This document shows, one piece after another, positions 10,047-28,926 of a stretch of DNA of 49,409 bases (positions within the stretch are counted from its first letter, which is position 1; each line of letters starts with the position of its first letter). The translations under genes and the position numbers were made by a program. The stretch covers positions 1 to 49,409 of the forward strand of contig PLNP01000017.1 of the NCBI GenBank assembly GCA_003142815.1, in the 5' to 3' direction. The notes under the pieces are model-generated. The model saw only the letters and a list, made by a program, of their open reading frames with translations, was not told where the DNA came from and did not search any database. Source of the stretch: Rhodanobacteraceae bacterium (GTDB lineage Bacteria; Pseudomonadota; Gammaproteobacteria; Xanthomonadales; Rhodanobacteraceae).

Positions 10047-10072
10047 CGGCATCGCCTTCCCGGAGTGCACGT

Positions 10073-12760: not shown

Positions 12761-13209
12761 GGCGACTCCAGATCGGGCGGGCACTGCGGATCACGCTGCC
12801 GCCTGGGGGAATCGCCGGGAATCGCGCCTAGTGCGTCGTTGCGACGCGACTACGATTCATCAGGCTATCCGCTCCATGGCGGCAGCGCTGCTTCGTCTGC
12901 TACTACTGCAACTGTCCACGGAGGGAACCTCGTTGGTACGGGATGGCGCGCCGGTCGATGACACGCGGCGCAATTATCACTCAAACGTCGTTCAAAAGTC
13001 TTACAGCGATCTTTTGTCTGATCGGTGTCGAGCTTCCGCTCTTTTCCTTATCCCCCGGGAGAAGGCGCCCCCTTCCGCCCTGCCGGGCACGTGGAGCGGC
13101 ACGTAACGCGGAAGGGCGCGCCTCTGAATACGTGACTCAAAGCCAGCAACGATCCCATCCTTCACAAACGCGCTTCTTGAGCTCCCGTATCGCGGGACAG
13201 TTTCACTTT
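12761..13209. other. 449-bp spacer upstream of mgtA
   Basis: No gene is recognised in this spacer between lpxK (upstream) and mgtA (downstream, both on the minus strand). It should carry the mgtA promoter and leader. It contains an inverted repeat at 13064-13078 and 13108-13122 (GGCGCCCCCTTCCGC against GCGGAAGGGCGCGCC). That structure could be the lpxK terminator or a leader structure of mgtA. I see no recognisable M-box or mgtL-like leader peptide. Confidence 0.5.
13064..13122. repeat. Intergenic inverted repeat between lpxK and mgtA
   Basis: Arms 13064-13078 and 13108-13122 pair over almost 15 bp around a 29-nt loop. There is no T tract, so it is not a standard Rho-independent terminator. 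Confidence 0.5.
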
Positions 13210-14175: not shown

Positions 14176-14267
14176 GGCGGTGAATCGTAAAGGGTACAGA
14201 GTGTCCTCTGATCAGCGCTGAAGTTCGTAAACTGCTCGCGCAGTCCTGTCCCACCAGGCGCTGCTGT

Positions 14268-14381
14268 TCAGGGCCGTAGGCCGACATCGTGGTATGCAGT
14301 GAACGGATTGGCGAGTTCGCCCTTACACAACGCGTCGAACGCACTATACGTCTGCTGGCGTTTGACTAAGCCTTGAGGATT
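14268..14381 (-). pseudogene. Remnant of an unidentified coding sequence
   Basis: On the minus strand, 37 codons (NPQGLVKRQQTYSAFDALCK, then GELANPFTAYHDVGLRP and a TGA stop at 14268-14270) read like the natural C-terminus of a protein. It begins without a start codon just behind the broken intI. I do not recognise the family. It is probably a scrap of another mobile gene or cassette left by the event that truncated intI. Confidence 0.35.
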
Positions 14382-15024
14382 GCTCGCATCCAGCGTTCGC
14401 GTTTGATGGCCGTGCAAATAAAATGAACCTGACTCCTATTTTTTGCGCATCAACCATCATCGCCGGCAGCATCGTGCGCCGGTCCTTGCCGCCCTTGCCC
14501 TGGCGCACCATGATCTCGCGCCGCGCGAAATCGATGTCCTGCACACGCAGGCGCAGACACTCCATCAAACGTAGGCCCGCGCCGTACAGCAAACCCGCCA
14601 TCAGCCAGGTCACGCCGCTCATTTCCTCCAGCAGTGCGACAACCTCGTCGCGGGTCAGCACGGTCGGCAACCGCTCGGGCCGCTTTACGCGGCGGATGTT
14701 GTTCATCCACGGCAATTCCTGCGCGAGCACCTCGCGATACAGGAACAACAATGCGGACAGCGCCTGATTCTGGGTCGACGCCGACACCCGATCGCGCGTC
14801 GCCAGCAGGGTGAGAAATGCCTCGCCCTCGCGCGCACCCATCTCGCGCGGATGGCGCTTGCTATTGGCCAGAATGAAGCGCCGCACCCAGCCGACATACG
14901 CTTCCTCGGTGCGCAACGACAAGCCAAGCCGGCGCATGCGCGCACGCATCTCGTCGAGCAGGCGCGGCCGCGCGACTGCTGCGGCACCACTTGCCGGCGC
15001 CGGGTCCGAGTGGGAGGATCGCAT
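14344..15024 (-). pseudogene. intI: Integron integrase, C-terminally truncated
   Basis: Tyrosine recombinase of the integron class. The N-terminal SAM-like domain ('LSLRTEEAYVGWVRRFILAN', 'HPREMGAREGEAFLTLLATR', 'VSASTQNQALSALLFLYREV', 'RVKRPERLPTVLTRDEVVAL') and the start of the catalytic domain ('LLYGAGLRLMECLRLRVQDI', with the first catalytic Arg, and 'VRQGKGGKDRRTMLP', with the beta-strand Lys) are intact. Homology stops after the TMLP motif at about 14450; about 30 unrelated residues follow before the stop. The IntI-specific insertion and the H-x-x-R and Tyr catalytic residues are therefore missing. The protein cannot be an active recombinase by itself. It faces away from the cassettes with its start next to attI, the canonical integron layout. 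Confidence 0.88.
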
Positions 15025-15192
15025 TGCTGCTGCCGTTCGCTGGGGAAAGGCCGCAAGATTAGGCTGCGGAATTAGACGGCGCGATCCGTAGAAGCTGTTG
15101 ATTCGTGTAGGAGATTTGCCATAGCCAAGACCCGGAAGGCCGCGCTAGGCTGCGGGACTAGGCTTCACTTTGGAACCGAATAGTAGTTGGGC
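15025..15192 (+). other. attI region and candidate cassette promoter
   Basis: This is the spacer between the intI start and the first cassette. The recombination core GTTGGGC lies at 15186-15192, and the first base is presumed to belong to attI. A weak sigma70-like pair (TTGATT 15098-15103, CATAGC 15120-15125, 16-bp spacing) points into the cassettes and could act as Pc, but the match is poor. attI is poorly conserved among integrons, so its left limit cannot be set. Confidence 0.55.
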
Positions 15193-15243
15193 CGCACAAC
15201 GCGCTCGTCCAGATTTATGCACCCAGAAAGGAAGGGGAAAAAA

Positions 15244-15522
15244 GTGAGAATCAACTTTGCACACATTCATCATCCGTCCACGAGTGGTGGCTATATTGAC
15301 TTTGCAGTGTTTGATGCAAGGGCATCAAGCAATACTACTTCCGCAAATCAGGCGGTTCTAACGCAGTTGACGTTTGCCGCGCGCAGTGCTGGCCACAAAA
15401 TAGATCAGTCAGCTATCGCATTTTCCGAAAGCGGCCAGCTCCGATTCTTTGGGGACAAGAATCTTGTAGATTTTCTATCGAAGAACGGTTTGCCTCAATG
15501 GACGCACTGGATCGATACTTGA
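15244..15522 (+). CDS. Cassette 1 protein, function unknown
   Basis: 92-aa protein, beginning (V/M)RINFAHIHHPSTSGGYID and ending LPQWTHWIDT. The GTG at 15244 is the best start: AAGGAAGGGG ends about 6 nt before it. In-frame ATG 15217 and TTG 15187 lie upstream, the latter inside the recombination core. I do not recognise a domain. The composition (Ser/Thr/Asn-rich, no membrane segment, no signal peptide) fits a small soluble protein. It is the only gene of the first cassette (15187-15646), the position best expressed in an integron. Codon use is clearly more AT-rich than the flanking chromosome, consistent with foreign origin. Confidence 0.7.
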   Translation: MRINFAHIHHPSTSGGYIDFAVFDARASSNTTSANQAVLTQLTFAARSAGHKIDQSAIAFSESGQLRFFGDKNLVDFLSKNGLPQWTHWIDT

Positions 15523-15582
15523 CGCAGGCACGGCGTTCTCGCAAACAACAGATCGTCAAGCAGTTGTCATGCAACGGGTGCG

Positions 15583-15652
15583 GCCCAACCCATCATTCCA
15601 TCAGACGCTGCGCGATGAAGCCGCGCAGCGCCGGTGAATTTTGACGTTGGGC
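15583..15652 (+). other. attC site of cassette 1
   Basis: 70 bp. R'' core GCCCAAC (15583-15589) and R' core GTTGGGC (15646-15652) are perfectly complementary. The interior forms an imperfect hairpin (GACGCTGCGCG ... CCGCGCAGCGCC), with the unpaired bases typical of attC bottom-strand folding. Confidence 0.85.
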
Positions 15653-15691
15653 GGCTTGGAGAGCACCGTCCGACCGTTCGTGGTCCGTGAT

Positions 15692-15916
15692 CTAGCGTTT
15701 TTGCCTACCGGCCTTCTGTTCGCCGCCGGCTGTCCGATCACCTCGAAGCCGCATTTTGTTGACCAACTTCATTGCTTCAGCCACCTCTGCGGGCTTCTCT
15801 CCTCGCTCGACTGCCGAGTAGTATCCTTGGCTAACTTTCATTCGTTCCGCTACTTCGGCTTGCGTCAAGCGCTTGCCTATGCGCATGGCCCGCAAGGTCT
15901 CAGCCTTGGTTGTCAT
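15692..15916 (-). CDS. XRE-family helix-turn-helix regulator (cassette 2)
   Basis: 74-aa protein. 'RIGKRLTQAEVAERMKVSQG' followed by 'YYSAVERGEKP' is a textbook XRE/Cro-type helix-turn-helix, filling almost the whole protein; the basic tail (RGDRTAGGEQKAGRQKR) is disordered. I start it at ATG 15916, preceded by TTGGAGGCGAGG; a TTG at 15928 is the alternative. It is encoded against the cassette direction and diverges from the 15970/16000 gene, so it must have its own promoter. A perfect 6-bp inverted repeat (15951-15965) in the shared region is its probable operator. Possible roles are an antitoxin-like or autoregulatory repressor of the neighbouring gene. Confidence 0.85.
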   Translation of the reverse strand: MTTKAETLRAMRIGKRLTQAEVAERMKVSQGYYSAVERGEKPAEVAEAMKLVNKMRLRGDRTAGGEQKAGRQKR

Positions 15917-15950
15917 CCTCGCCTCCAACTCGTATCAAGAAAATACAAAA

Positions 15951-15965
15951 TACTATAAGATAGTA
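15951..15965. promoter_or_regulatory. Palindromic operator between the divergent cassette 2 genes
   Basis: TACTAT-AAG-ATAGTA is a perfect inverted repeat centred in the short, AT-rich divergent region (15917-15969). It overlaps the only TATAAG-like -10 candidate. Position and symmetry fit an XRE dimer site that controls both genes. Confidence 0.6.
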
Positions 15966-15969
15966 CAGA

Positions 15970-16629
15970 ATGCAAATCGAGGTCGGTTCCGGGGGCATCA
16001 TGACTGAATCTGTACAGGGCGTTTGGAACCGCTTCGAGCGGTGGGCTAATCGATACACGAAATCATGCGCCGTGGAAATCGCGCGTATCTGTCGGAAAGG
16101 CTACTCGGACGGACCCACGCTATTCCTTCTCAAGTCCCACGAGGTGCGTGGCGATCCAGTCTTGGACTTTGGGCTTGGGAAGGCCGAACTCAATGAACGG
16201 ATTCAGAGGCGCATCGCGTTTTTCTGTGGGTACTTGGTAGATATTTCATTCGATGGTGGCGAGTTCATGTCCAAACACTCGCAATTTCTCACGCTGCAGT
16301 ATCCGCAGAGAAGCGAGAAGTCACTGGGTGTGTGGCTGGAGCAGTCTATGGAGGGGAAAATCGAAGGAGGCGCGTATCACGGATTTCAAGACTTCGATAT
16401 CTCATTCTTCATCAGAGACATAGGTGACATCGATGTCGCTTCGATGCGCGAAGTCCTCCCGTTCAAGTGGATGCATCTGCGCAAGCCAGGTGGAGAAAAA
16501 TGGAACCATCAGGAACGTCGAGAACTAGAGCAGAAGCTCGAGTACGACTTGTGCTTCGATGGGCACGATCACAAGCTTCAGATGAGGGAGAGCGGAGAGA
16601 TGCTTACGCTCACTTTCAAATGGCTGTAG
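15970..16629 (+). CDS. Cassette 2 protein, function unknown
   Basis: 219 aa from ATG 15970, or 209 aa from ATG 16000 (MTESVQGVWNRFERWANRYT). The protein looks soluble and contains 'LDFGLGKAELNERIQRRIAF', 'FRDI'-like acidic stretches and a C-terminal beta-rich segment ending LTLTFKWL. No known domain, signal peptide or membrane helix was recognised. It diverges from the XRE gene, and its start region overlaps the probable operator, so it is likely repressed by that regulator. Regulator plus unknown effector in one mobile cassette resembles toxin-antitoxin or defence modules, but that is inference. It ends 30 bp before attC2. Confidence 0.7.
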   Translation: MQIEVGSGGIMTESVQGVWNRFERWANRYTKSCAVEIARICRKGYSDGPTLFLLKSHEVRGDPVLDFGLGKAELNERIQRRIAFFCGYLVDISFDGGEFMSKHSQFLTLQYPQRSEKSLGVWLEQSMEGKIEGGAYHGFQDFDISFFIRDIGDIDVASMREVLPFKWMHLRKPGGEKWNHQERRELEQKLEYDLCFDGHDHKLQMRESGEMLTLTFKWL

Positions 16630-16658
16630 CACCCAATCGGCAACTGCGTATGGCCGCC

Positions 16659-16742
16659 GCCCAACCAAGCGTTGCACCCGACGGCACTGCCTCCGCGGCT
16701 TCGCCGCTCCGGCAGTGCCGCGGGTGAACGCAGGCGTTAGCC
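16659..16742 (+). other. attC site of cassette 2
   Basis: 84 bp. R'' core GCCCAAC (16659-16665); right core GTTAGCC (16736-16742), whose last six bases belong to cassette 3. The interior hairpin is long (GGCACTGCC ... GGCAGTGCC) with an apical GCGGCTTCGCCGC stem. R'' matches the cassette's own left edge rather than this right core, as expected for a site shared by two cassettes. Confidence 0.85.
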
Positions 16743-16763
16743 AGAGACAATGAGGAACGAACT

Positions 16764-17411
16764 ATGAGCCTTCCAGACAGCTACACGCTAAAGCCCAGCT
16801 CCACCGCGGCCTACTTCGACGCCTTACTGGACGCTCAGCCGCCAGAAAGGTTCTCCATCAAGTTCCTGGAGAACCTCGGGTTCACGAGCACCAACGACCG
16901 GCTCTTGATCGGGATACTCAAGGACTTGGGCTTTCTAAACGCTGACGGAGTTCCTCAGCCGCGGTACTTCGACTTCTTGGACCGCTCTCGATCGAAGCAG
17001 GTCGTCGCGGCCAGCATCCGTGATGCCTACAGCGAACTGTTCGCCGTCAACACCAGGGCGAACGAGCTGTCGGCGACCGACGTGAAGAACAAGCTACGCA
17101 CGCTCTACTCAGGCAAGAAGACCAATGGTGTCATCGATCGGATCGCGAAAACGTTTAGCTCGCTCTGCGAGTACGCGGATTTCTCACAAGAGCCTCCTAC
17201 AACCGCGAAGACCGAGGTGGCCGAAGACAAGAAAAAAGACTCGCCACCTCACAAGAAGCCTGAGGCTGGTATTCAGCCACTGGCCCAGGCGATCGCTCTC
17301 GATTCGCTTCAGTACCATATCAACATCGTGCTACCCGAGACGCGGGATCAGGGCGTGTACGACGCCATCTTCCGATCCCTTCGCGAGCACTTGGGCACAC
17401 GGCATGGATAA
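16764..17411 (+). CDS. DUF5343 family protein (cassette 3)
   Basis: 215-aa protein. The N-terminal ~135 residues ('YTLKPSSTAAYFDALLDAQP', 'FLENLGFTSTNDRLLIGILK', 'DLGFLNADGVPQPRYFDFLD', 'AYSELFAVNTRA') match the DUF5343 family, which has a winged-helix look. A charged linker ('DKKKDSPPHKKPEAG') leads to a short conserved C-terminus ('SLQYHINIVLPETRDQGVYD'). Start ATG 16764 has GAGGAACGAACT before it. Its last 8 bases overlap the next gene, so the two are co-translated. DUF5343 genes are repeatedly seen beside HEPN-type genes. I infer a two-component effector/regulator pair, perhaps anti-phage or TA-like. Confidence 0.75.
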   Translation: MSLPDSYTLKPSSTAAYFDALLDAQPPERFSIKFLENLGFTSTNDRLLIGILKDLGFLNADGVPQPRYFDFLDRSRSKQVVAASIRDAYSELFAVNTRANELSATDVKNKLRTLYSGKKTNGVIDRIAKTFSSLCEYADFSQEPPTTAKTEVAEDKKKDSPPHKKPEAGIQPLAQAIALDSLQYHINIVLPETRDQGVYDAIFRSLREHLGTRHG

Positions 17412-17973
17412 CCTCTACTCCTTCGTCTACCGTGGCGTACTCGCAGAGGAAGCGCTCGACAGGGTTGGCCGGAACCGCCACAAGCACTTCGGAGCCGAGG
17501 AATCTCGGGAGCTGCAGAAGACGCTGTCGTACGAGCTGCTCGAGGCAGAAGCCCTCGCCGACGCACAGCGGATGAGCACCGTCTATGCGGCAATCCACGC
17601 CTTCGAGAACATGGTGAGGGATCTCGTCGCGAAGGCGATGGTCGATCATCACGGTGAGGACTGGTGGTCGAAGGTCCCCGACCGCATTCGGAAGAGCGTA
17701 ACAACGAGGATGTCGGAGGATGCGAAGTTCCGGTGGCACGGTGCCCGCGGCACAAGCGAGATGAACTACTGCGACTTCGGCGATCTGTCGTCGATCATCG
17801 TGACGAGCTGGCCGGCCTTCGAGGATGTACTTTCCAATATGGAGTGGGCAAAGGCCATTCTTTCTACCCTTGAGAAGTCCCGCAATACCACCATGCACGG
17901 CGGAGTTCTCGCGAAGGAAGATGTGGAGCGGATCGGGATGAACATTCGAGACTGGATTAGGCAAACAGGATGA
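17404..17973 (+). CDS. Swt1-like HEPN domain protein (cassette 3)
   Basis: 189-aa protein. The central and C-terminal helical region resembles the Swt1-family HEPN domain: 'VYAAIHAFENMVRDLVAKAM', 'HHGEDWWSKVPDRIRKSVTT', then 'LSTLEKSRNTTMHGGVLAKE'. R160 and H165 form the R-x4-H motif that is the RNase active site of HEPN toxins. HEPN proteins act as abortive-infection or toxin RNases, or as inactive helical partners. The start overlaps the DUF5343 stop by 8 nt. The gene ends 8 bp before attC3. Toxin activity is inferred, not shown. Confidence 0.75.
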   Translation: MDNLYSFVYRGVLAEEALDRVGRNRHKHFGAEESRELQKTLSYELLEAEALADAQRMSTVYAAIHAFENMVRDLVAKAMVDHHGEDWWSKVPDRIRKSVTTRMSEDAKFRWHGARGTSEMNYCDFGDLSSIIVTSWPAFEDVLSNMEWAKAILSTLEKSRNTTMHGGVLAKEDVERIGMNIRDWIRQTG

Positions 17974-17980
17974 ACGGCCT

Positions 17981-18041
17981 GGCTAACAACCGGTTGCAGC
18001 GGACGGCGCTGGCGCGACGCCGCTGAACCGTGACGGTGGGC
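17981..18041 (+). other. attC site of cassette 3
   Basis: 61 bp. R'' core GGCTAAC (17981-17987) is the exact complement of the cassette 3 left edge (GTTAGCC). The right core is GGTGGGC (18035-18041) instead of GTTRRRY, so the conserved AAC/GTT pairing is damaged on that side. The interior hairpin is CGGCGC-TGGC-GCGCC-like (CAGCGGACGGCG/CGACGCCGCTG). Confidence 0.75.
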
Positions 18042-18065
18042 GGCCAGGAGGCGCTTACATAATGG

Positions 18066-18212
18066 ATGAAGCAGTTCGAGAAGCTCTCCGGGAGGCGTTC
18101 GCACTCGAAGGATGTGATCGAACCGAAACGACTTGAAATAATAGTTGAAGATCTTCAGACAGCACTATCTGAGTTTTCAACCTTTATGGTCACGTTCCTG
18201 TCCAAAGAATGA
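18066..18212 (+). CDS. Small cassette 4 ORF, 48 aa
   Basis: Cassette 4 is only 234 bp. The best ORF runs from ATG 18066 to TGA 18210-18212 and encodes MKQFEKLSGRRSHSKDVIEP, then KRLEIIVEDLQTALSEFSTF and MVTFLSKE: a basic N-terminus followed by an amphipathic helix. A second ATG at 18062 overlaps it (AUGGAUGAAG) in another frame and gives 24 aa. The AGGAGG at 18046-18051 is spaced better for 18062 than for 18066, so which frame is used is open. The stop touches attC4. No family was recognised, and it may not be expressed. Confidence 0.45.
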   Translation: MKQFEKLSGRRSHSKDVIEPKRLEIIVEDLQTALSEFSTFMVTFLSKE

Positions 18213-18213
18213 C

Positions 18214-18275
18214 GCCGAACCCGGCGTTCAAGCGGGACGCCGCAAAAGCGCGGCGCTCTTAACTTTACGTTAGCT
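18214..18275 (+). other. attC site of cassette 4
   Basis: 62 bp. R'' core GCCGAAC (18214-18220), right core GTTAGCT (18269-18275). The interior hairpin is GACGCCGC-AAAAGC-GCGGCGCTC-like. The right core is the exact complement of the R'' core of cassette 5 (AGCTAAC, 26964), which ties this junction to cassette 5. Confidence 0.8.
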
Positions 18276-18299
18276 GGCGCCAAACCAGGCTGGAGCTCG

Positions 18300-21059
18300 A
18301 TGAAGTTTACTGACTCCCAACGGAATGCCATCGGGCACGCCGGTCTCAACCTTCAGCTCATCGCCTGCGCCGGCTCGGGCAAGACCGAAGTTGTCGCACG
18401 GCGTGTGGTCCATCTGCTGACGCCGGGTCGGAAAGACTCGCTCGCCCCGCGCAATATCGTAGCCTTCACCTTCACCGACAAGGCGGCCGCCGAACTGAAG
18501 GAGCGGATCGTGAGTCGGACGCGCGAGGCGCTCGGTGAGCTGCCGGGCCTCGCCGAGATGTTCGTCGGCACCATCCACGCCTTCTGCCTTGAGCTGCTCA
18601 AGAGCGAGGCGCCGAAGTACCTCAAGTACGAAGTGTTGAACGAGGTCCAGCAAGGGCTTTTCGTCGACCGCCACAGCAAGCAGAGTGGACTGACTGCCTC
18701 GACCGACCTCGCAGGTTCGGCACTGAAGCGTTACCGCGACACGAAGCACTACATCGGAGCGCTTGCGATCCTGCGCGAAGCCGAACTCGAGGACGCAAAC
18801 CTCAATGGCTGTTCCATCTCTGACGGTCTCGATGCATATCGGCAGCTTCTCGATGACCGCAGTTACCTCGACTACTCCTCGATTCTCGAAGCCGCGGTCG
18901 AGGTCCTCACGGGCGATGACGGCCTGCGCGCGCGACTCGCCGAGCGGGTCAAGTATGTGATCGTCGATGAGTACCAAGACGTGAACCCACTGCAGGAGGC
19001 GATCGCCTGGTCGCTGCATGAGCTTGGCGCCCGCATCTGCGTGGTCGGCGACGACGATCAGACTATCTACCAGTGGCGCGGCAGCGACGTCGAGAACATC
19101 CTGACCTTCGACAAGCGTTACCCCGGCGTCGATCAGATCTCGCTCGAGGAGAACTTTCGCTCGGGCGACGGGATCGTCGAGACGGCACGGGTGTTCATCG
19201 AGCAGAACGCCTCCCGGCTCGCGAAGGCGATGAAGCCGACGGGCGCGCAGACGCACGAACCAGGCGACATCGTCGCGCTCTCGTTCGCGACGCCCGATGA
19301 GGAGGCGCAGTACATCGCAGCAACTTCGCAGTCCCTGCGCGGTGTGGCCTTCCGGCAAGACGACGCCGAGCGTGGCCTGTCGTGGTCCGACATGGCGGTG
19401 TTGCTCAGAAGCGTGAAGTCGAACGCCGAGCCGATCACGGCTGCGCTGCAGGCGGCGGGCATCCCATTCGTCGTGACCGGGATGACGAACCTGTTTGGCA
19501 CGGCCGAGGCCGAGGCGGCGCGGCAACTCTTCTACTTCATTGGCGACCATCACGGGAAGGACGAAGGGGCTGTGGAGAGCGCCTGGAACGGCGCGAATCT
19601 TGGCCTCGATCCGGCAGCCCTCCAATCCGCGATCCACGGAGCCGCCGCCGCGAAGTCCGCCCTCACCGACTCGGACCAGAAGCGCTGGGGTCAGTACTCG
19701 ATCCAACGCGTCTTCCTGAAGTTCCTCGAGGACGCTGGTGTCCGCGAGGAGCGCGTCCCAGGCGGACGTGGCGAGGTCGTCTTCTACAACCTCGGCAAGT
19801 TCAGCCAGCTCATCTCCGACTACGAGACGATCCACTTCCACTCGAAGCCGGCCGAAAAATACGCCTCGTTCGCGGACTTCCTGCAGTACCGCGCCGAGGA
19901 CGCCTACCCCGAAGGCTGGCAGGACAACCAGTACGCCAACCCCGACGCCGTGCGGATCATGACCATCCACCAAGCCAAGGGGATGCAGTGGCCGGTGGTG
20001 TTCGTGCCGGCGCTCCTGAAGAACCGCTTCCCGGCTAAGAAGCCCGGTGGCCGCAACGTGTGGCACCTTCTCCCGCGCAACGGCGTGAAAGGCCAACCAC
20101 GCTTCGAGGGCACGATCGAGGACGAGCGGAGACTCTTCTACGTCGCGATGACGCGCAGCCAGAAGTTCCTGCACTTCACCTGGGCGCCCGTACCCGACAA
20201 CCAGCTCTTCCAGAGGTGCTCGCAATTCTGGGACGACGTGCTCGCTTCGAAGCACGTGAAGCGTCGCGCGCCGGACTACTCCTCGCGCAAGCGCCTTACG
20301 CCCACGCCGCGGGCCGGGGTCGCGAACGTCGTCTTCTCCTTCTCGGACCTGAAGTACTTCTTCGAGTGCCCGTACCAGTTCAAGCTACGCGTGCTGTACG
20401 GCTTCAACGCGCCAATCCATGAGGCCCTCGGCTATGGCAAGTCGCTGCACGACGCGCTGGCCGAGGTGCATGCACGCGCCATCCGTGGAGATGTCGCCGA
20501 TGCCGCCGAGGTCCCGCGGCTTGTCGAGACGCACCTGCATGCGCCCTACGCGTATCCAGCGCTCAGGCAGCAGCTCGAGGCGTCGGCCGAGCGGGTGCTG
20601 CGCGACTACCTGTGCGACAACGCGCAACTCTTCGACAAAATCGAGTTCTCCGAGAAGCAGATCGAGGTCAGCCTCGGTGACGGCGTGAGCATCGTGGGAC
20701 GGATCGACCTCGTGCGGCGGATCGACACGGGGGAGACCACGATCGTCGACCTCAAGTCGAGCGGCCTCGCCCAGAGCGAGGACGTCACCGAGACTCAGCT
20801 CCATGTGTACGCTCTCGGTTATCAGGAGCTCACCGGCCGGCGCCCAGACCTCGTGGAGACCTACCTTCTAGATGAGCGCAAGCGCAAGCCGCGTTCCGTG
20901 GACGACGACTTCATCGCCGAAGTCAAGACCAAGGTGCGCGACGCTGCCGAAGCGCTGCGAACCGGCGCGCTGCCCACCGCTCCTGCTGCCAAGAAGTGCA
21001 GGACCTGCGACTATCGAGGCATGTGCACGGCCGGGCGTGCCGCCGCTGCAACCAAGTGA
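18300..21059 (+). CDS. UvrD-type DNA helicase fused to a RecB/Cas4-like Fe-S nuclease (cassette 5)
   Basis: 919-aa SF1A helicase-nuclease. Helicase: motif I 'ACAGSGKTEVVARR' (K28), motif II 'VIVDEYQDVNP' (D223-E224), motif III 'VGDDDQTIYQWRG', 'LEENFRSGDG' (motif IV), 'IMTIHQAKGMQWPVVF' (motif V), 'RRLFYVAMTRSQ' (motif VI). The C-terminal PD-(D/E)XK nuclease domain has D803 ('GRIDLV'), D817-x-K819 ('VDLKSS') and the Q833-x3-Y837 motif. It is framed by four cysteines, C690 ('FFECPYQF') and C900/C903/C909 ('CRTCDYRGMC'), as in AddB/Cas4 iron-sulfur nucleases. It should unwind DNA 3' to 5' and cut it. First gene of the three-gene cassette; ATG 18300 lies 25 bp inside the cassette edge, behind CTGGAG. 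The methyltransferase follows after 17 bp. Confidence 0.93.
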   Translation: MKFTDSQRNAIGHAGLNLQLIACAGSGKTEVVARRVVHLLTPGRKDSLAPRNIVAFTFTDKAAAELKERIVSRTREALGELPGLAEMFVGTIHAFCLELLKSEAPKYLKYEVLNEVQQGLFVDRHSKQSGLTASTDLAGSALKRYRDTKHYIGALAILREAELEDANLNGCSISDGLDAYRQLLDDRSYLDYSSILEAAVEVLTGDDGLRARLAERVKYVIVDEYQDVNPLQEAIAWSLHELGARICVVGDDDQTIYQWRGSDVENILTFDKRYPGVDQISLEENFRSGDGIVETARVFIEQNASRLAKAMKPTGAQTHEPGDIVALSFATPDEEAQYIAATSQSLRGVAFRQDDAERGLSWSDMAVLLRSVKSNAEPITAALQAAGIPFVVTGMTNLFGTAEAEAARQLFYFIGDHHGKDEGAVESAWNGANLGLDPAALQSAIHGAAAAKSALTDSDQKRWGQYSIQRVFLKFLEDAGVREERVPGGRGEVVFYNLGKFSQLISDYETIHFHSKPAEKYASFADFLQYRAEDAYPEGWQDNQYANPDAVRIMTIHQAKGMQWPVVFVPALLKNRFPAKKPGGRNVWHLLPRNGVKGQPRFEGTIEDERRLFYVAMTRSQKFLHFTWAPVPDNQLFQRCSQFWDDVLASKHVKRRAPDYSSRKRLTPTPRAGVANVVFSFSDLKYFFECPYQFKLRVLYGFNAPIHEALGYGKSLHDALAEVHARAIRGDVADAAEVPRLVETHLHAPYAYPALRQQLEASAERVLRDYLCDNAQLFDKIEFSEKQIEVSLGDGVSIVGRIDLVRRIDTGETTIVDLKSSGLAQSEDVTETQLHVYALGYQELTGRRPDLVETYLLDERKRKPRSVDDDFIAEVKTKVRDAAEALRTGALPTAPAAKKCRTCDYRGMCTAGRAAAATK

Positions 21060-21076
21060 CGAGGAGCAAGTGCGAC

Positions 21077-23608
21077 ATGGCCCGTGAACCCAAAAAGCCA
21101 AAGACCGAGAAGAAGGTCACCCGCTACACCTACGACGAGATTAAGGAGCCACGCACGCCCGAGACGGGGCACACGTCGCTCTTGCCGGCCGAGGAGTTGG
21201 TGGTGACCCTGCCGATGGACAACGGCTGGAGCAAGGCGATCGAGGTCGGGAAGCTGCCGGAAGGGGATGAGCGGCCGGTGGTGGTGGACATGGACCCGGC
21301 AGCGGACCCGGTGCTCTTCTGGGCGGGCAAGCGCAACCGGCGTGAGGTGCCCGTGCTGCCGCTCCAGCGCAACGAGATCGTCTCCGAGTCGCGCATCGCG
21401 CAGATCATCGACCGGGCACGCCGGGCGGCGGAGGAGAAGTCGGGTGCAGCGCGGCAGGGCCACCTCTTCGCCGACCTCGAGAAGACGCTGCGCGAGACCG
21501 ACCGCGCCAAGCGCGTCGAGTTCTACACCCACGAGGAGGGCTGGAAGAACAAGCTTATCTGCGGCGACTCTCTACAGGTGATGGAGTCCCTGCTGCATTA
21601 CGAGAACCTGCGCGGCAGAGTGCAGATGATCTTCCTCGACCCGCCGTACGGCATCAAGTATGACTCGAACTTCCAACAGCGGGTCGACTCCACGAAGAAC
21701 GACGAGAAGGATGCCGCTGACGACGTGCTAACGATCAAGGCTTTCCGCGATACGTGGGCCTTGGGCATTCATTCGTACCTCTCGTACTTGCAAGAGCGGC
21801 TTTATCTGTGCCGCGAACTGCTCGCTGAGAGCGGCTCGATCTTTCTGCAGATGGGCGACGAGAATGCGCACATCACGCGAGCGCTCTTGGATGAAGTCTT
21901 TGGAGCAGTCAACTTCGTGTCAGAGGTGATTTTCTACAAGACTTCCGGCAAGGGCGCGGCCGGTCTGGATGCCGTGTTCGACCGGTTACTCTGGTATGCG
22001 AAGGACAAGCCTTCTCTCAAATATCGGCAGCTCTACATGCCGCGGCCGCAACACACGCTGCAGGAGCAGTACACGCTTGTGGAGCTCGCTGACGGCACCG
22101 TGCGACGAATCACCGACGAAGAGAACGACGGCGGCTCCTCGCTTCCCGAGGGTGCGAGACGGTTTATGGCGGGCGATCTGTCATCCCAAGGCCAGTCGGA
22201 GGAAGGCTCAGAGGCATTCGAGTTTGAGGGCGTGAAATACTCCCTGCCGCCGAACACCCACTGGAAAACTGGTCTCGAAGGCCGCAAGCGTCTCGCGGCG
22301 AAGAGAAGGCTCTTCCCCGTCGGGAAGCGACTCCGCTACAAGCGCTACGCCGAGGACTTCCCCCTCGCTCCGTACACCAACATCTGGGACGACACCGTCA
22401 TCAGTGGATTCGGCTCCGCCAAACTCTATGCGGTGCAGACATCTCCGAAAGTGGTGGAGCGCTGCATACTGATGACGACAGATCCGAGCGACCTTGTATT
22501 CGACCCCACATGCGGCTCGGGCACGACCGCCGCGTGTGCGGAGAGCACTGGAAGGCGTTGGGTCACTTGCGATACTTCGCGTGTGGCAGTGAACGTCGCG
22601 CGGCAGCGCTTGGTGTCGGCCGTCTTGCCGCACTATAGGACTCGAAACGGCAAGGTGTCCGGCAACTTTCTCTACAGGGTGGTGCCTCACGTCACTCTGA
22701 AGAGCCTCGCTTACGACCTTGAGCCGGAGAAGGTCGAACTCGTCGACCAATTCGAGGTGGACAAGGACGCGGTCCGCGTTTGCGGCCCCTTCGAGGTCGC
22801 CTCCCTCGGCCGCTACTCCGTCGAAGACTGGAAGGGCTACGTCGTCCGCGAGCCGGGCATCGGCGAAACGGCGAAGCTCGAGAACTACATCGAGGTGATT
22901 TGCCGCCTCTACCGCAAGGATGCAGCGATCCAGGGCGCGACCGGGCTCATCCACGCGGTGGCCGAGACCGAGAAGGATAAGATCGCGATCTCCGTCGGTC
23001 CACTCTCTGGCCGCGTGACCGGCAAGCAGATCAATGACGCGGTTCAGGATGCGCTTGCCTCGGGAATCTTGGAGGTGCACGTGCTCGGCTGGGCGTTCGA
23101 GGCGAACGTGGGGGAAGTGAAGTCGCAGCTCGAGAAGCGCGGCAGAGTGAAGGTCGAGCTGATCATGATCCGACCGGACACGCTCGCCGAGGGGCTCAAG
23201 GCGACGCAACCCGAAATGCTGTTCTCGCCGCTGGCGCTGCCGGACATTGCGGTCGCGGTCGAGAAGAACGGCAAGGTGGAGCGCACGGTGCACGTCACGC
23301 TCAAGGGCGTGGCGCTCTTCGACCGCAAGCGCCGCACCACCGAGTACAAGGCGGCGGACTCGGGCTACGTGTCGGCGTGGTATCTCGACGAGGACTACGA
23401 CGGCGACTGCTTCGTGGACTGCCAGATGTTCTTCGACTTCAAGAAGACGCCGAACATCAAGGCGGCACTTAGGGCTGAGGTGGACCCGGACGAGTTCATG
23501 CTCAAGCTTGCCTCGGAGCCGTTCCCGGTGCGTAGCTATAAGCGCATCGCGGTGAAGGTTGTGGACGTGTACGGCAACGAGTCCACCGTCGTGCTGGACC
23601 TGGCGTAA
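21077..23608 (+). CDS. Beta-class (type III Mod-like) DNA adenine methyltransferase (cassette 5)
   Basis: 843-aa site-specific methyltransferase. Motif IV 'IFLDPPYGIKYDSNFQ' (D188-PPY) precedes motif I 'FDPTCGSGTTAACAES' (D476), the order of beta-class and type III Mod enzymes. DPPY predicts N6-adenine methylation. The ~270 residues between would be the target-recognition domain. An extra ~330-residue C-terminal part ('GPLSGRVTGKQINDAVQDAL', 'LFDRKRRTTEYKAADSGYVS') makes it longer than a usual Mod and may be an interaction domain. Start ATG 21077 has GAGGAG ten bases upstream; the longer ORF from 20996 would overlap the helicase gene. It modifies host DNA so the partner nuclease spares it. 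The Res-like gene follows after 12 bp. Confidence 0.92.
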   Translation: MAREPKKPKTEKKVTRYTYDEIKEPRTPETGHTSLLPAEELVVTLPMDNGWSKAIEVGKLPEGDERPVVVDMDPAADPVLFWAGKRNRREVPVLPLQRNEIVSESRIAQIIDRARRAAEEKSGAARQGHLFADLEKTLRETDRAKRVEFYTHEEGWKNKLICGDSLQVMESLLHYENLRGRVQMIFLDPPYGIKYDSNFQQRVDSTKNDEKDAADDVLTIKAFRDTWALGIHSYLSYLQERLYLCRELLAESGSIFLQMGDENAHITRALLDEVFGAVNFVSEVIFYKTSGKGAAGLDAVFDRLLWYAKDKPSLKYRQLYMPRPQHTLQEQYTLVELADGTVRRITDEENDGGSSLPEGARRFMAGDLSSQGQSEEGSEAFEFEGVKYSLPPNTHWKTGLEGRKRLAAKRRLFPVGKRLRYKRYAEDFPLAPYTNIWDDTVISGFGSAKLYAVQTSPKVVERCILMTTDPSDLVFDPTCGSGTTAACAESTGRRWVTCDTSRVAVNVARQRLVSAVLPHYRTRNGKVSGNFLYRVVPHVTLKSLAYDLEPEKVELVDQFEVDKDAVRVCGPFEVASLGRYSVEDWKGYVVREPGIGETAKLENYIEVICRLYRKDAAIQGATGLIHAVAETEKDKIAISVGPLSGRVTGKQINDAVQDALASGILEVHVLGWAFEANVGEVKSQLEKRGRVKVELIMIRPDTLAEGLKATQPEMLFSPLALPDIAVAVEKNGKVERTVHVTLKGVALFDRKRRTTEYKAADSGYVSAWYLDEDYDGDCFVDCQMFFDFKKTPNIKAALRAEVDPDEFMLKLASEPFPVRSYKRIAVKVVDVYGNESTVVLDLA

Positions 23609-23620
23609 GGGGGCGCGGCG

Positions 23621-26600
23621 ATGGCTTACGTTGTCGATCGCGTCGTCATCTGCGACGCCTTTCAGGAACCCGGGCGGCACTACCAGCTCCTGGCGGGCGG
23701 TCGGTCGAAACTCGCCGAGGGTCGTCGGCCGTCGATGCGATTCCTCGCCTCCGCCAAGGACGTGAAGGGCGGCATCGCCGGCATAGTCGGCAAGGAGGCC
23801 GGCCTCTTCGAGGATCTGCTCGCCAGCTCCGAGCAGCGCAACGACTTAGTCAACCAGCTTCGCGGCGAAGTGTGCAGGTGGCGCGAGGCCGGCTACCCGA
23901 GCACCGCGGTGGTGACGCGGCGGTTGCTCGAGTGGTGGTTCGAGCGCGACGAGGAGCGAGCGAAGCTCTATAAGCGCTTCTTCTTCTGTCAGCAGGAGGC
24001 GGTCGAGACCGTCATCTACCTGTACGAGGTGCAGGGCCGGCGGAAGATGCCCGAGACCGGCGACCTCTTGCGCTACGCGCTCAAGCTCGCCACCGGCACC
24101 GGCAAGACGGTTGTGATGGCGCTCTTCGTCACTTGGGCGACGCTGCATAAACGCAAGGTGAGCGGCTCGTCGCTCTCGGCGAACTTCCTGGTGCTTGTGC
24201 CTAACCTCACGGTACGCGACCGGGTGAGCGGGGTGCCGCGTGGCGACGGGCTCGATCCAACGGGCGAGCACAACCTCTACGACGGCTTCGACGTAGTTCC
24301 GCCGGAGTACCGCGAGGAGTTCCGGCCGAACGTGCTAGTGCGCAACTGGCAGGGCATTCCGCTCGAGGGGAAGCGCGATGACTGGATAGGCGAGGACGCG
24401 GTGCCAGTCGAAGAGGGGCGGTTCATTCCGCAGTCGGTGCTGCGCGCGATGCGCCTGCGCGCGAAGCAGGACCCGAATGCGCCGATCCGACGGCTGCTCC
24501 GGGGGTGGCGGGACCTGGTGGTCATCAACGACGAGGCCCACCACGTTTATGGCGAGAAGCGCGGCCGGAAGGGAGAGGACGCCGAGCATATCAGGTGGAG
24601 CAAGATTCTCCAGCGCATATCCAGGGCAACGCGATTGAGCCTGGTGATCGATCTGTCGGCGACACCCTGGTATGGCTCTGGCTCGCCGAAGCCGGAAGGG
24701 ACGTTGTTCGAGTGGCTGGTCTCGGACTTTTCGGTCTACGACGCGTTCGAGTCCGGGCTGGTCAAGGTGGTGCGGCTCCCCGATCCTGACCAGCAAGGGC
24801 GCGTGTACCTGGACCTGTGGGACATGGTGAAGGGCGCCAAGACTAAGGAGGAGTACCTGCGCGCCTGCAAGGGCGCCATCGCGAGCATCTATTCGTCGTG
24901 GAGGAAGGACCACGACGAGTGGGCGAGTTCGTTCGACTTCGCGCGTCCGAGCCCCGTGCTCCTGTGCGTTACCGACAGCGCTCAGCGCGCAGCGTGGCTC
25001 TTCGAGCACCTGACGCGCGAGTACGAACTGCTGCGCAACCCCGACGACGATGACCGAAAGCATTGGGTGACGATCCCGATCGACTCCAAGGTATTCGATG
25101 CCGACAAGGGCAACGAAGCGGTGTTAAGGGAGATGGTTAACACCGTAGGGTTCAAAGGAAAGTCCGGCGAACGGGTGCGATGCATCGTTAGCGTGCAAAT
25201 GCTGACCGAGGGCTGGGACGTGAAGAGCGTGACCCACATTCTTGGTCTGCGCGCATTCGGCTCACCGCTTCTCACCGAGCAGATCATCGGTCGCGGGCTA
25301 CGCAGGACGAACTACGACGTTCTCAACCAGCCGTTCGACGAGCGACCGGAGGGCAGTGAGGAAACAGTGGACGCCTTCGGCATTCCCTTCGTCGGCTTCC
25401 CGGTTGAGAAGCGCAAACGACCGCGTACGGGCGAATGGGGGCAGAAACCGATTTGGATCGAACCGGACCTCAAGAAGGTCAAGTTTCGCGTCACCGTGCC
25501 GAACGTGCGGTCGTGGGCAGTGGGCATGACCGAGTCTTTGGCCGACCTGATCCGTGTCGAGGACTTGCCACAGATCCGGATCAACCCGAAAGAGACACCA
25601 CCGGATGTTCGAATGAAGCCGGTCGTGGGCGGCGCACCCGAGATCGTGATGCGTCTCGAGGAGTTCCGCAACGAGTGGCCAACCCTGCGATCCTCCTTTC
25701 GCATTGCTGAGGAGCTCTATCAACAGACAAACCCAGGTTCCGCCGCAGAACTCGGCATCGGTCCTACATTCGAGGAGCTACTCCACGTCAGCCGGCGGTA
25801 TGTAGACGAACGCGTCGAGACGATGAAAGTCGGTGGGGTACGGAGCGACCTGCGTGACATCGGCATCCCCTATTGGAGAGGTCCGGCCCTGGACATACTG
25901 GAGAATGCGATTCGCGGCTCGGGGCTCCCAGGAGTCGAAGCCGTGCCCATACTTGGGTCGCCCGACTGGCTCGACACGGCGCACCTGCGTCGCTTCCAGT
26001 GGACTGGCATCGTGGCCGACGGCAAGCGGTGCCACACGAACAAGGTACCGTGCCACACCGACCTCGAGAAACGCTTCGCCGATTTCCTCGACGGCGCCAA
26101 GGATGTCGTGCGTTACTTCAAGAACGAGCGCCTCGGCTTTTCGGTCACCTACTACGAGAGCAACAGGCCGCGGCAGTACTACCCGGATTTTATCATCGCC
26201 ACGCGTGACAAGGATGGGCGTGAGGTCATGTGGGTCGCGGAGACCAAGGGCGAAGTGCGCCCCAACACAGCGCTCAAGAGCGAAGCGGCGCGGATATGGT
26301 GCGAGAAGATGAGCGGCACCAAGTACGGCCAGTGGCGCTACCTGTTCGTGCAGCAGCGCAAGCTCGAGAGTGCACTGGCGGCCAGCGTGAAGTCGCTCGC
26401 CGAGCTGGCCGAGGGCCTCGTCGTTGGGCGGCCGGAGCCGCAGCTACGCCTCATTTCGTTTGAGGACGAGCGCGCCAAGCGCGAGGCGTTTAAGACGCTC
26501 CTGCCGCTCTACTCCCTCAAAGCCGCAGCGGGTTACTTCGGCAACGCCGAACCCGTGGAGCCGGAGAGCTGGGTCGAAGCGGACGGCCTCGGCAAGATCG

Positions 26601-26941
26601 ACGAGCGAATGTTCGTTTGCCGTGCCGTGGGCCGGTCGATGGAACCGACGATCCGTGACGGGGACTACATCGTCTTTCGCGCAAAGCCGGCCGGAACGCG
26701 GCAGGGCAAGATCGTCCTCGCGCAGTACCGCGGCCTTGCCGATCCGGACACGGGCGGAGCATTCACAGTCAAGCGCTACTCGTCAGAGAAGACAGCGTCC
26801 GACGAAGGGGGCTGGCGGCACACGCGCGTGGTGTTGTCGCCGACGAATCCGGACTATCAGCCGATCGTTCTGTCCCAGGATGACGCGGAGCATGTGGAGA
26901 TCTTGGCGGAGTTTGTGACGGTGCTGCGAGGTCTCGGATGA
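23621..26941 (+). CDS. Res-like DEAH helicase-nuclease with a C-terminal S24 (LexA/UmuD-like) domain (cassette 5)
   Basis: 1106-aa fusion. SF2 helicase: motif I 'LATGTGKTVVMALF' (K162), motif II 'VINDEAHHVYG' (D304-EAH), motif III 'DLSATPWYG', motifs V-VI 'LTEGWDVKSVTH ... QIIGRGLRR'. A nuclease follows: 'YYPDFIIATRDKDG' (D856) and 'WVAETKGE' (E874-x-K876), a PD-(D/E)XK centre. It resembles the family NCBI names BPTD_3080 restriction endonuclease (from memory). The last ~140 residues are an S24 peptidase: Ser1006 in 'GRSMEPTIRDGDYIVFRA' and Lys1051 in 'FTVKRY'. An Ala970-Gly971 pair ('LKAAAGYFG') lies 35 residues before the serine, the spacing of the UmuD cleavage site. Self-cleavage separating the domain from the nuclease is predicted. 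The gene ends 22 bp before attC5. Confidence 0.92.
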   Translation: MAYVVDRVVICDAFQEPGRHYQLLAGGRSKLAEGRRPSMRFLASAKDVKGGIAGIVGKEAGLFEDLLASSEQRNDLVNQLRGEVCRWREAGYPSTAVVTRRLLEWWFERDEERAKLYKRFFFCQQEAVETVIYLYEVQGRRKMPETGDLLRYALKLATGTGKTVVMALFVTWATLHKRKVSGSSLSANFLVLVPNLTVRDRVSGVPRGDGLDPTGEHNLYDGFDVVPPEYREEFRPNVLVRNWQGIPLEGKRDDWIGEDAVPVEEGRFIPQSVLRAMRLRAKQDPNAPIRRLLRGWRDLVVINDEAHHVYGEKRGRKGEDAEHIRWSKILQRISRATRLSLVIDLSATPWYGSGSPKPEGTLFEWLVSDFSVYDAFESGLVKVVRLPDPDQQGRVYLDLWDMVKGAKTKEEYLRACKGAIASIYSSWRKDHDEWASSFDFARPSPVLLCVTDSAQRAAWLFEHLTREYELLRNPDDDDRKHWVTIPIDSKVFDADKGNEAVLREMVNTVGFKGKSGERVRCIVSVQMLTEGWDVKSVTHILGLRAFGSPLLTEQIIGRGLRRTNYDVLNQPFDERPEGSEETVDAFGIPFVGFPVEKRKRPRTGEWGQKPIWIEPDLKKVKFRVTVPNVRSWAVGMTESLADLIRVEDLPQIRINPKETPPDVRMKPVVGGAPEIVMRLEEFRNEWPTLRSSFRIAEELYQQTNPGSAAELGIGPTFEELLHVSRRYVDERVETMKVGGVRSDLRDIGIPYWRGPALDILENAIRGSGLPGVEAVPILGSPDWLDTAHLRRFQWTGIVADGKRCHTNKVPCHTDLEKRFADFLDGAKDVVRYFKNERLGFSVTYYESNRPRQYYPDFIIATRDKDGREVMWVAETKGEVRPNTALKSEAARIWCEKMSGTKYGQWRYLFVQQRKLESALAASVKSLAELAEGLVVGRPEPQLRLISFEDERAKREAFKTLLPLYSLKAAAGYFGNAEPVEPESWVEADGLGKIDERMFVCRAVGRSMEPTIRDGDYIVFRAKPAGTRQGKIVLAQYRGLADPDTGGAFTVKRYSSEKTASDEGGWRHTRVVLSPTNPDYQPIVLSQDDAEHVEILAEFVTVLRGLG

Positions 26942-26963
26942 AATGGGAGTGTCGAGAGGCGCC

Positions 26964-27023
26964 AGCTAACAACAGCATGCAGCTGACGGCGCTTCGCGCC
27001 GCAGCTGATGCTGGTCGTTAGAC
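26964..27023 (+). other. attC site of cassette 5, last in the array
   Basis: 60 bp. R'' core AGCTAAC (26964-26970), right core GTTAGAC (27017-27023). The interior is a near-perfect hairpin (CAGCATGCAGCTGACGGCGC ... GCGCCGCAGCTGATGCTG) around TTC. R'' is the exact complement of the cassette 5 left edge at 18269-18275, 8.75 kb away. Confidence 0.88.
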
Positions 27024-27156
27024 ATTTGTCCGATGGGTTTGAACGCTCGCTGAGGAGAACAGAATTGAAGAGAACGCTCGAGGGCTGCGAAATCAATCAA
27101 GCTATCCATAATCAATCCACAGTCGATAGGCCGATTCGTGTTGCTCCGCCGACGTC

Positions 27157-28926
27157 TTACTCCCCACTCTTTACGCTGTCCTTGAATTGCATGTGGTACA
27201 GCGCGGCGTAATGGCCACCGCGTGCGAGCAGGACCGCGTGGGTGCCCCGCTCGACGATGACGCCGTGGTCGAGCACGACGATCTGGTCGGCATGCTCGAC
27301 GGTCGACAGGCGATGCGCGATCACGAAAACGGTGCGGTCGCGGATCAAGCGCTTCAATGCACCCTGGATCAGGCGTTCGGATTCGCTGTCGAGGGCGCTG
27401 GTCGCCTCGTCGAGAATCAGGATCGGCGCATTCTTGAGCAGCGCACGCGCGATCGCGATGCGCTGGCGCTGGCCGCCGGAGAGCAATCCGCCACCCTGGC
27501 CGACGCGGCTATGGATGCCATCGGGCAACTGGCGGATGAATTCCATCGCATTCGCGGCTTCCGCAGCGGCGACGACCTCGGCCTCGCTGGCGCCCGCGAG
27601 CGCGCCATAGGCAATGTTGTGCGCGACGGTGTCATCGAACAGGGTCACCGTCTGGCCAACCCAGGCGATCTGCCGGCGCAGACTGTCCAGCGTGTAGTCA
27701 CTGAGAGCGTGGCCGTCGATGCGGATGCTGCCCGCACTCGGTTCATAGAAGCGTGCGATCAGGCTGGCGAGCGTCGACTTGCCGCTGCCTGAGCGGCCAA
27801 CCAACGCGGTCACGCTGCCGCGCGGACAGCTGAGGTCGACGCCTCGCAACGCGGGCGCGGCCCTCCCGGCATAGGACATGTGCACGTCGTGGAATTCGAC
27901 GCTGCCCTTGAATGCACTCAGTTCGATCTGACCTTCGTCATGCTCAGCGGGCGTGTCGATCAGCGAAAAGATTTCCTCCGCCGCGGCCAGGCCGCGCTGT
28001 AGATTGGCCTGCACCGTGGTCAGACGCTTGAGCGACGGCAGGATGCCGCCCATTGCGAGAATCAGCGAGGTGAACGCACCCAGCGACAGCTCGGAAAGCA
28101 TGGTCGGCCGGGTCGCGAAATAGATGATCGAGGCCAGCGATATCGCGGCGATCAACTGCACCAGCGAACTCGCCAAACCATTCGTTGCCGACACCTTGAC
28201 GCCGAGCCGACGGGTCTCTTCGGCGACGCGGTTGAAGCGCGCGGATTCATAGCGCTGGCCACCAAACACCTTGACCTCGCGGTTCGCGCCGACGACTTCC
28301 TCGATGACGCCAGTCACGGTGCCCATCGAGCCCTGGATGCGATGGCTGATGCGCCTATAGCGGCGTCCGACGTAGACGACCAGCGCGCCGACCAGCGGCA
28401 CCATGACCAGCAGGGCGAGGGTGAGCTTCACGCTGACCAGCAGCATCACGATCACATAGAAGACGACGCTGAGCCCATCGACGATCGCGACCTTGATCGC
28501 GTCGGTGGATGCCTGCGCGACCTGTTCGGAGCTGTAGGTGATGCGCGCGATCTGGTGTCCGGACGATTCACGGTCGAAGAAACCCGATGGCAGGCGCAGA
28601 TAATGGTCGAACACTTGCTGGCGCAATGCCTGCACGACGCCGCGACCGATGTACGCGGTGCCGTAGTCGGTGACATAGGTCGCGATGCTGCGCACGAAGA
28701 ACAGCGTGACGATCAGGATCGGCATCCAGAAGATGCTTTGCGGATCGCGCGCGATGAACAGGTTGTCCAGCATCTTCATCGAGCGCGCGAACATGCCCAT
28801 GCAGGCCGCGTCCGTGATCATCGCCAGCACCGCTACGCACGCGATCGGCCAGTAGCGCCGTGCGTAACCGAGCAATCTGGCGTAGATGGCCAGCCCGGAA
28901 CGCGCGGACGCGTTCGCCGTGTTCAC
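27157..28926 (-). CDS. msbA: Lipid A export ABC transporter (permease and ATPase)
   Basis: 589-aa half-transporter that flips core-lipid A across the inner membrane. An N-terminal six-helix membrane domain ('RYWPIACVAVLAMITDAACM' onwards) is followed by a C-terminal ATPase with Walker A 'VGRSGSGKSTLASLI', signature 'LSGGQRQRIAIARALL', and Walker B 'ILILDEATSALDSE'. Its ATG overlaps the exbD stop (28923-28926), so exbB-exbD-msbA is one transcript. In relatives lpxK follows directly; here the integron begins 134 bp behind the msbA stop. The C-terminus is intact, so insertion did not damage the gene. Confidence 0.95.
   Translation of the reverse strand: MNTANASARSGLAIYARLLGYARRYWPIACVAVLAMITDAACMGMFARSMKMLDNLFIARDPQSIFWMPILIVTLFFVRSIATYVTDYGTAYIGRGVVQALRQQVFDHYLRLPSGFFDRESSGHQIARITYSSEQVAQASTDAIKVAIVDGLSVVFYVIVMLLVSVKLTLALLVMVPLVGALVVYVGRRYRRISHRIQGSMGTVTGVIEEVVGANREVKVFGGQRYESARFNRVAEETRRLGVKVSATNGLASSLVQLIAAISLASIIYFATRPTMLSELSLGAFTSLILAMGGILPSLKRLTTVQANLQRGLAAAEEIFSLIDTPAEHDEGQIELSAFKGSVEFHDVHMSYAGRAAPALRGVDLSCPRGSVTALVGRSGSGKSTLASLIARFYEPSAGSIRIDGHALSDYTLDSLRRQIAWVGQTVTLFDDTVAHNIAYGALAGASEAEVVAAAEAANAMEFIRQLPDGIHSRVGQGGGLLSGGQRQRIAIARALLKNAPILILDEATSALDSESERLIQGALKRLIRDRTVFVIAHRLSTVEHADQIVVLDHGVIVERGTHAVLLARGGHYAALYHMQFKDSVKSGE

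Follow-up and report, generated by a model that had tools for sequence, protein, structure and literature searches.

Can an operon of almost 9 kb be carried as a single integron cassette, when such cassettes are usually small? The question is raised by a 49,409-nt stretch of DNA from a bacterium of the family Rhodanobacteraceae (contig PLNP01000017.1, the whole of which is called the window here), where three large genes lie between two integron recombination sites of the attC type. The unit at 18270-27017 is very probably a true integron cassette that entered as a circle and that carries a complete type III-like restriction-modification operon. Its parts are as follows.

18270..27017, + strand: the probable giant cassette, 8,748 bp; ends pair over 13 nt, no internal attC
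18214..18275, + strand: attC of cassette 4, with R' core GTTAGCT at 18269-18275 (24.6 bits, E 1.4e-3)
18300..21059, + strand: gene A, UvrD-type helicase fused to a Cas4-like PD-(D/E)XK nuclease, 919 residues (Pfam)
21077..23608, + strand: gene B, Mod-like N6-adenine methyltransferase, 843 residues (Pfam, PADLOC, 4zcf profile)
23621..26941, + strand: gene C, Res-like superfamily 2 helicase/endonuclease with a C-terminal S24 peptidase domain, 1106 residues (Pfam)
26964..27023, + strand: attC of the giant cassette (attC5), the best attC of the window (43.0 bits, E 7.9e-8)

The attC sites were located with a covariance model built from 20 aligned sites (7 from other contigs of the same genome, 13 from relatives and none from the window). 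The hairpin of the model has 19 pairs, formed in 85.7% of cells, and 10 of these pairs are changed on both sides. A scan of the whole window on both strands, with filters off and E up to 10, found five full-length sites, every one on the + strand; beyond these it listed only the reverse reading of the last site (11.7 bits) and three scraps of at most 10.1 bits. The left border of the giant cassette is the R' core of the cassette 4 attC, and attC5 is made up of R'' AGCTAAC (26964-26970) and R' GTTAGAC (27017-27023), so that the coordinates which an earlier note on this DNA had given for the cassette and its two cores are correct. That note had also reported no attC inside the unit, and within 18276-26963 the model indeed lists none, the sole entry being an 8.1-bit partial of 24 nt on the - strand (20299-20322, E 8.8). 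Because the model places no site among the three genes, they are not split. Three in-gene candidates from a cruder scan for R''/R' hairpins (18635-18721, 25321-25409 and 25498-25613) were rejected, none of them being listed by the attC model.

When a cassette circle is inserted, the part of the core that it brings becomes the left end of the cassette, and that left end should therefore pair with the cassette's own R''. For the giant cassette this complementarity is exact over 13 nt, between GTTAGCTGGCGCC (18269-18281) and GGCGCCAGCTAAC (26958-26970). The complementary cores pointed out in the earlier note are thus real as a pairing, which extends past the cores and is better described as that of the left end and the R'' of one cassette. 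Across cassettes 1-5 of the window the own-end matches are 12, 10, 9, 1 and 13 nt, that of the giant cassette being the longest; the largest match with the R'' of another cassette inside the array is 7 nt, and the giant cassette's left end matches the R'' of other cassettes in the order sample over at most 8 nt.

The weight of a 13-nt match was calibrated on 22 loci of the order (19 of 20 stretches, L075 being left out, together with L027, L029 and L031). Sites were present in 19 of these loci and at least two sites in 16; with three weak opposite-strand matches dropped, the 130 sites give 111 consecutive cassettes, 16 of which lack GTT at both ends and were excluded from the match test and kept in the size test. 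Some of these sites had also trained the attC model, which has no bearing on the end match. The cassettes matched their own R'' over at least 7 nt in 80 of 95 cases and over at least 13 nt in 5. Mismatched pairings numbered 7,904 between arrays and 1,026 within arrays; they reached 7 nt in 20% and 25% of cases respectively, 9 nt in 1.7% and 1.2%, and 13 nt in none of the 8,930. Since a match of this length was seen in no mismatched pairing, both ends of the giant unit belong together. As read from the sequence, then, the anatomy is that of an integron cassette: bounded by the preceding R' core and by its own attC, with exactly one attC and a left end complementary to its own R''. Both the lack of an internal attC and the 13-nt match speak for a single three-gene cassette, and from these ends we infer that it moved as one circle.

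A side observation from the 16 loci with consecutive sites is that own-end complementarity often exceeds the 7-nt core, the commonest value being 12 nt (20 of 95 cassettes). Complementarity past the core may bear on how cassettes are made.

The size of the unit is far from the small one that is typical, and not defining, of cassettes. The 111 cassettes of the order have a median of 493 bp, and the largest of them, at 2,855 bp, is the only one above 2 kb, with none beyond 4 kb, in a sample that omits a large gap on contig C5 (L029 starts at C5:20000) and some further sites. The available part of PMC5371416 describes excision tests on inserts of 60 to 3,060 bp and deems long cassettes possible and rarely formed, with the genesis of cassettes described as largely unknown.

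All three reading frames of the operon are open. The gaps given in the earlier note, 17 bp between genes A and B and 12 bp between B and C, hold provided that gene B starts at 21077; its longest open reading frame (ORF) in the window begins at 20996, and in two homologous loci (L015 and L022) the frame begins at the codon equivalent to 21077. Gene A matches UvrD-helicase (1.9e-53), UvrD_C (5.9e-34), PDDEXK_1 (1.2e-28) and Cas_Cas4 (1.4e-7) in Pfam. Gene B matches Pfam N6_N4_Mtase (1.1e-32) and PADLOC MTase_III (8.9e-129), and by profile the Mod subunit of EcoP15I (4zcf, 3e-23). In type III Mod proteins DPPY lies ahead of the S-adenosylmethionine motif, with a variable recognition region in between. 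Gene B has this arrangement, with DPPYG at 188 and DPTCGSG at 476, and among 10 sequences its residues from about 285 to 434 have a mean pairwise identity of 39%, as opposed to 78% elsewhere. A 285-434 region that varies in this way is what one sees in a restriction system of changing specificity. In type III systems Res joins a superfamily 2 helicase to a PD-ExK nuclease. Gene C scores above the Pfam cut-offs for ResIII (4.5e-11), RE_endonuc (3.3e-5) and Peptidase_S24 (1.2e-11). Its match to PADLOC REase_III is weak (1.4e-11); as a whole protein it is nearer to the NCBIfam BPTD_3080 family, at 571 bits under a cut-off of 800, and at E 0.001 it matches no solved structure.

The S24 domain spans residues 962-1098 of gene C. 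In an alignment of 12 sequences Ser1006 (in GRSMEP), Lys1051 (in TVK) and Ala968-970 (in AAAG) are invariant and Gly971 nearly so. The alignment is selective, taking in 11 of 17 homologous loci; L017 was left out as partial (to residue 1103), L018 as having no such domain, L013 as matched only to residue 926, and L021, L023 and L024 as cut earlier. As in LexA and UmuD, we take Ser1006 and Lys1051 to be the catalytic dyad and the Ala-Gly pair to be the cleavage site, and by sequence gene C would have both of these S24 features. In L018, a metagenome-assembled genome (MAG) of Phycisphaerae, and in viral contig L093, gene C is 948 residues long, lacks the S24 domain and is followed (L018 12854-13920; L093 12807-13876) by a helix-turn-helix gene and then by a gene for an M78 peptidase of the IrrE/ImmA type. 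Since two unrelated peptidase modules occupy the same point of the operon, their placement suggests that the operon may be controlled by damage-triggered proteolysis. The terms S24, UvrD and LexA have no occurrence in PMC12839542.

From these domains we also infer restriction activity, a role for gene A and cleavage at the S24 domain. The cassette circle would have joined the array through an integron integrase. The gene B product (Mod) would then methylate host sites, and that of gene C (Res) would travel along DNA and cut where it is unmethylated; in type III enzymes the cut falls between two unmethylated sites of inverse orientation. Gene A could unwind the cut DNA and degrade it from its ends, much like enzymes of the AddA/RecB type. 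The S24 domain is probably a built-in switch, in which DNA damage would lead to self-cleavage at the conserved Ala-Gly and so would free or remove the nuclease; this might serve activation, or else protection of host DNA during the SOS response. In S24 peptidases of this kind it is RecA filaments that set off self-cleavage.

Relatives of the operon are scattered widely. One scan of the genome collection returned 17 loci whose gene C homologues share 66-87% identity with that of the window; the labels of these MAGs include Acidobacteria, Burkholderiales, Deltaproteobacteria, Nitrospirae and Phycisphaerae. The order A-B-C is kept in all 10 loci that reach gene A, some with extra DNA in between, and in the other 7 the contig ends before gene A; gene A is only 47% identical in L023 and L025. 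One viral record holds A, B and C, and another only A, at its end. Gene C was found in no genome besides its own among 398 genomes of the order (E 1e-60), nor among 398 of the phylum (E 1e-150), a sample that overlaps the first. PADLOC was run on 10 proteins, flanking or inserted, that were picked by hand from 7 loci: it clearly named JetD in L015, MkoA in L018 and TmtA in L012, gave one further, weak name (L023) and left six unnamed at E 1e-8. The restriction and defence nature proposed in the earlier note is thus backed by the domains, by the hypervariable Mod region, by the defence neighbours of some relatives and by the available text of PMC5704561, in which type III Mod and Res are the most common neighbourhood of a UvrD-Cas4 fusion.

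The cassette is the last of a series flanked by a truncated integron integrase on one side and by an msbA-like gene on the other, with these further features.

14452..14961, - strand: truncated integron integrase (TIGR02249, 226 bits, under the 265-bit cut-off)
15186..15192, + strand: attI core GTTGGGC, left end of cassette 1 (12-nt own-end match with the R'' of cassette 1)
15583..15652, + strand: attC of cassette 1 (39.0 bits, E 6.7e-7)
16659..16742, + strand: attC of cassette 2 (40.2 bits, E 3.5e-7)
17981..18041, + strand: attC of cassette 3, with the departing R' core GGTGGGC (25.9 bits, E 6.9e-4)

By eye, a sequence similar to that near the attI core lies next to a complete integrase (IntI) on contig C8 of the same genome. 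The departing core of the third attC probably ties cassettes 3 and 4 together. Cassette 3 (16764-17973) itself holds a two-gene candidate defence pair, PDC-M34A and PDC-M34B by PADLOC, and DUF5343 and Swt1-like HEPN by Pfam. The window is contig C36 of a 3.22-Mb draft genome in 57 contigs. An insert of about 13 kb (14176-27156) parts lpxK (13210-14175, - strand) from an ABC transporter gene (27157-28926, - strand) that is called msbA by its place, and this insert is not in relatives. LpxK was matched in 21 of 21 genomes, and 18 were fetched as loci, one of them from the genome under study; in 16 of the 17 others lpxK has an MsbA match next to it, with L058 cut by a contig end and the match in L061 covering only 36 residues near the end of MsbA, at a contig edge.

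The same genome has at least 24 attC sites in short scattered arrays, on contigs C5, C8, C21, C25, C26, C28, C29, C32, C36, C42 and C51. Those on C5 and C25 adjoin integrase fragments that match only the first 79 and 63 residues, and two further genomes of the genus (G398 and G401) have a comparable scatter of sites.

Several observations weigh against a giant cassette that was mobilised as a unit. A consensus promoter scan of 14900-18400 gave no site, against 1.5 expected. The integrase fragment spans model positions 1-170 of 315, with the C-terminal catalytic half lost, and past about residue 191 it diverges from the complete copy. Because the integrase in cis is broken, present mobility would depend on a complete integrase elsewhere in the genome. 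The one on C8 (C8:71533-72474) scores 472 bits and is free of stops; it shares 83% identity with the fragment over residues 1-193 and carries HTLRH, LLGH and IYTH, the C-terminal motifs expected of such integrases. The attC of cassette 4 has a low score, and its predicted bottom-strand fold falls short of a full hairpin, so that excision of the giant cassette may be slow even with an integrase. According to the available part of PMC5371416, a consistent drop in excision was seen only for cassettes of at least 1.5 kb with a weakly folding site. For attC5, one long hairpin is predicted on the bottom strand, and this site re-joined as in the circle would form a single hairpin, paired at either end, in which only three bases besides the 3-nt loop stay unpaired.

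A further point of this kind is that the model finds no attC at the edges of the operon in the 17 genome-collection loci (searched with default filters) and the two viral records. In the former the upstream edge is visible in 10, the downstream in 13 and both in 9, that downstream of L016 reaching only about 120 bases past gene C; with one of the two viral records added, both edges are visible in 10 of 19. The weak matches were at L014 7453-7513 (15.5 bits, E 0.91) and L012 1442-1498 (11.1 bits, E 9.5). The model's training sites come from this order, and it may therefore overlook divergent attC sites of other phyla. The cruder scan gave further candidates in relatives; one of these, at L012 13434-13491, about 150 nt past gene C, was rejected as lying inside the next ORF and being unlisted by the model. 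Among the refuting conditions of the earlier note, that of homologues with no attC edges thus points against its reading. The operon usually travels by means other than cassettes, and the window copy is no less a cassette for that.

This leads to the alternative that survives best, an unlikely one on balance, in which a small cassette was already present and the operon got into it by some other mechanism, replacing its gene and leaving its ends in place. The lack of attC edges in the relatives found fits this account, as does the lack of any cassette above 3 kb among the 111 sampled. Set against it, no trace of a different gene or element came to notice; the start codon of gene A lies 24 nt past the left core, the stop codon of gene C 22 nt ahead of R'', and the roughly 10 nt ahead of the gene A start resemble, by eye, the native leader of L016.

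Much less probable is a fusion, in which two or more cassettes were joined after loss of an internal attC and the genes were not one cassette at capture. Decay of the array can be seen in the core of the third attC and in the end match of cassette 4 (a run of 1), and the longest cassette of the neighbours, that of 2,855 bp, matches its own R'' over only 5 nt and is perhaps itself a fusion. The 13-nt match of the left end with the R'' of the last attC, found in no mismatched pair, largely rules this out for the giant cassette; moreover, gaps of 17 and 12 bp are too short for an attC, and the order A-B-C is also found outside integrons. Least probable of all is a defence island caught by chance between attC-like sites, or an assembly artefact: the genome is a draft in 57 contigs and other defence genes adjoin some homologues, but five same-strand attC sites stand in series with a truncated integrase, the insert parts two genes which stand side by side in 16 of the 17 loci from relatives, the ends match over 13 nt, and the guanine-plus-cytosine fraction of 18-28 kb (0.63) is comparable to that of both flanks.

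Beside the giant cassette of the window, the genome holds a second large unit on contig C5 (L083, C5:10000-24000). At 4078-13351 of that locus, on the - strand, a 9.27-kb unit directly follows an attC core and carries hsdR (33 nt past the core), PDC-S22, an hsdM-hsdS fusion, SIR2 and herA. It ends at a core GTTAGGC, which the next cassette (a 217-aa ORF) matches over 7 nt. With filters off the attC model lists no site inside this unit and does not recognise its closing attC; a long hairpin lies beside the closing core, and two more copies of its 16-nt arm are present elsewhere in the genome. No R'' matches the left end, the runs being at most 4 nt. Because the end match is absent and the closing attC looks damaged, the unit is not counted as a second giant cassette; it could be one whose attC has been damaged, or it could have arisen by fusion.

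How does the window cassette compare with known systems? A 2025 review (PMC12409362), in its available part, describes the defence systems of integrons as streamlined for size, with systems of more than two genes notably absent. The anti-phage integron cassettes of Darracq, Getz, Kieffer and colleagues (2025), as described in PMC12409362 and cited in PMC12444791, are alike in that defence genes are bounded by attC sites within an array, whereas the window cassette is 8.7 kb long and has three large genes. In Xanthomonas integrons, 20 orthologous cassette genes (1.8%) belong to defence systems according to the available part of PMC12444791. The three-gene system itself is not new, since UvrD-Cas4 in a neighbourhood of type III Mod and Res, the same three protein types as in the window, has been published in PMC5704561; the portion of that text consulted, with no search made for these terms, has no mention of integrons or of an S24 domain on Res. 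EcoP15I has a Mod that resembles gene B and, like gene C, a helicase-nuclease, whereas the window operon adds a second helicase-nuclease gene and the S24 domain, and gene C lacks a match among solved structures. The BPTD_3080 family of restriction endonucleases (NCBIfam NF046055) is modelled over 970 positions, as against the 1106 residues of gene C, in which S24 begins at 962. The novelty therefore lies in the vehicle, an integron cassette, and not in the system, and a larger cassette may still be present in the 2025 primary reports.

The window cassette suggests that integrons can hold defence systems bigger than those on record. Surveys that cluster attC sites under a short distance limit are predicted to miss giant cassettes. 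In IntegronFinder the default limit on attC distance is about 4 kb. PMC9024848 mentions a distance threshold, the value of which is not stated there.

A broader proposal is put forward tentatively, as one that could well fail: that integrons capture and mobilise operons of 8-10 kb, complete immune systems included, that the Res-type nuclease of this system bears an SOS-type self-cleaving switch, and that this genome may hold a second case on C5. If it is true, the rule of small cassettes would stem from how seldom large ones form, or from surveys that overlook them, and not from a ceiling set by recombination. An 8.7-kb, three-gene cassette with matching ends makes the upper size limit of cassettes, and the question of their genesis, directly testable.

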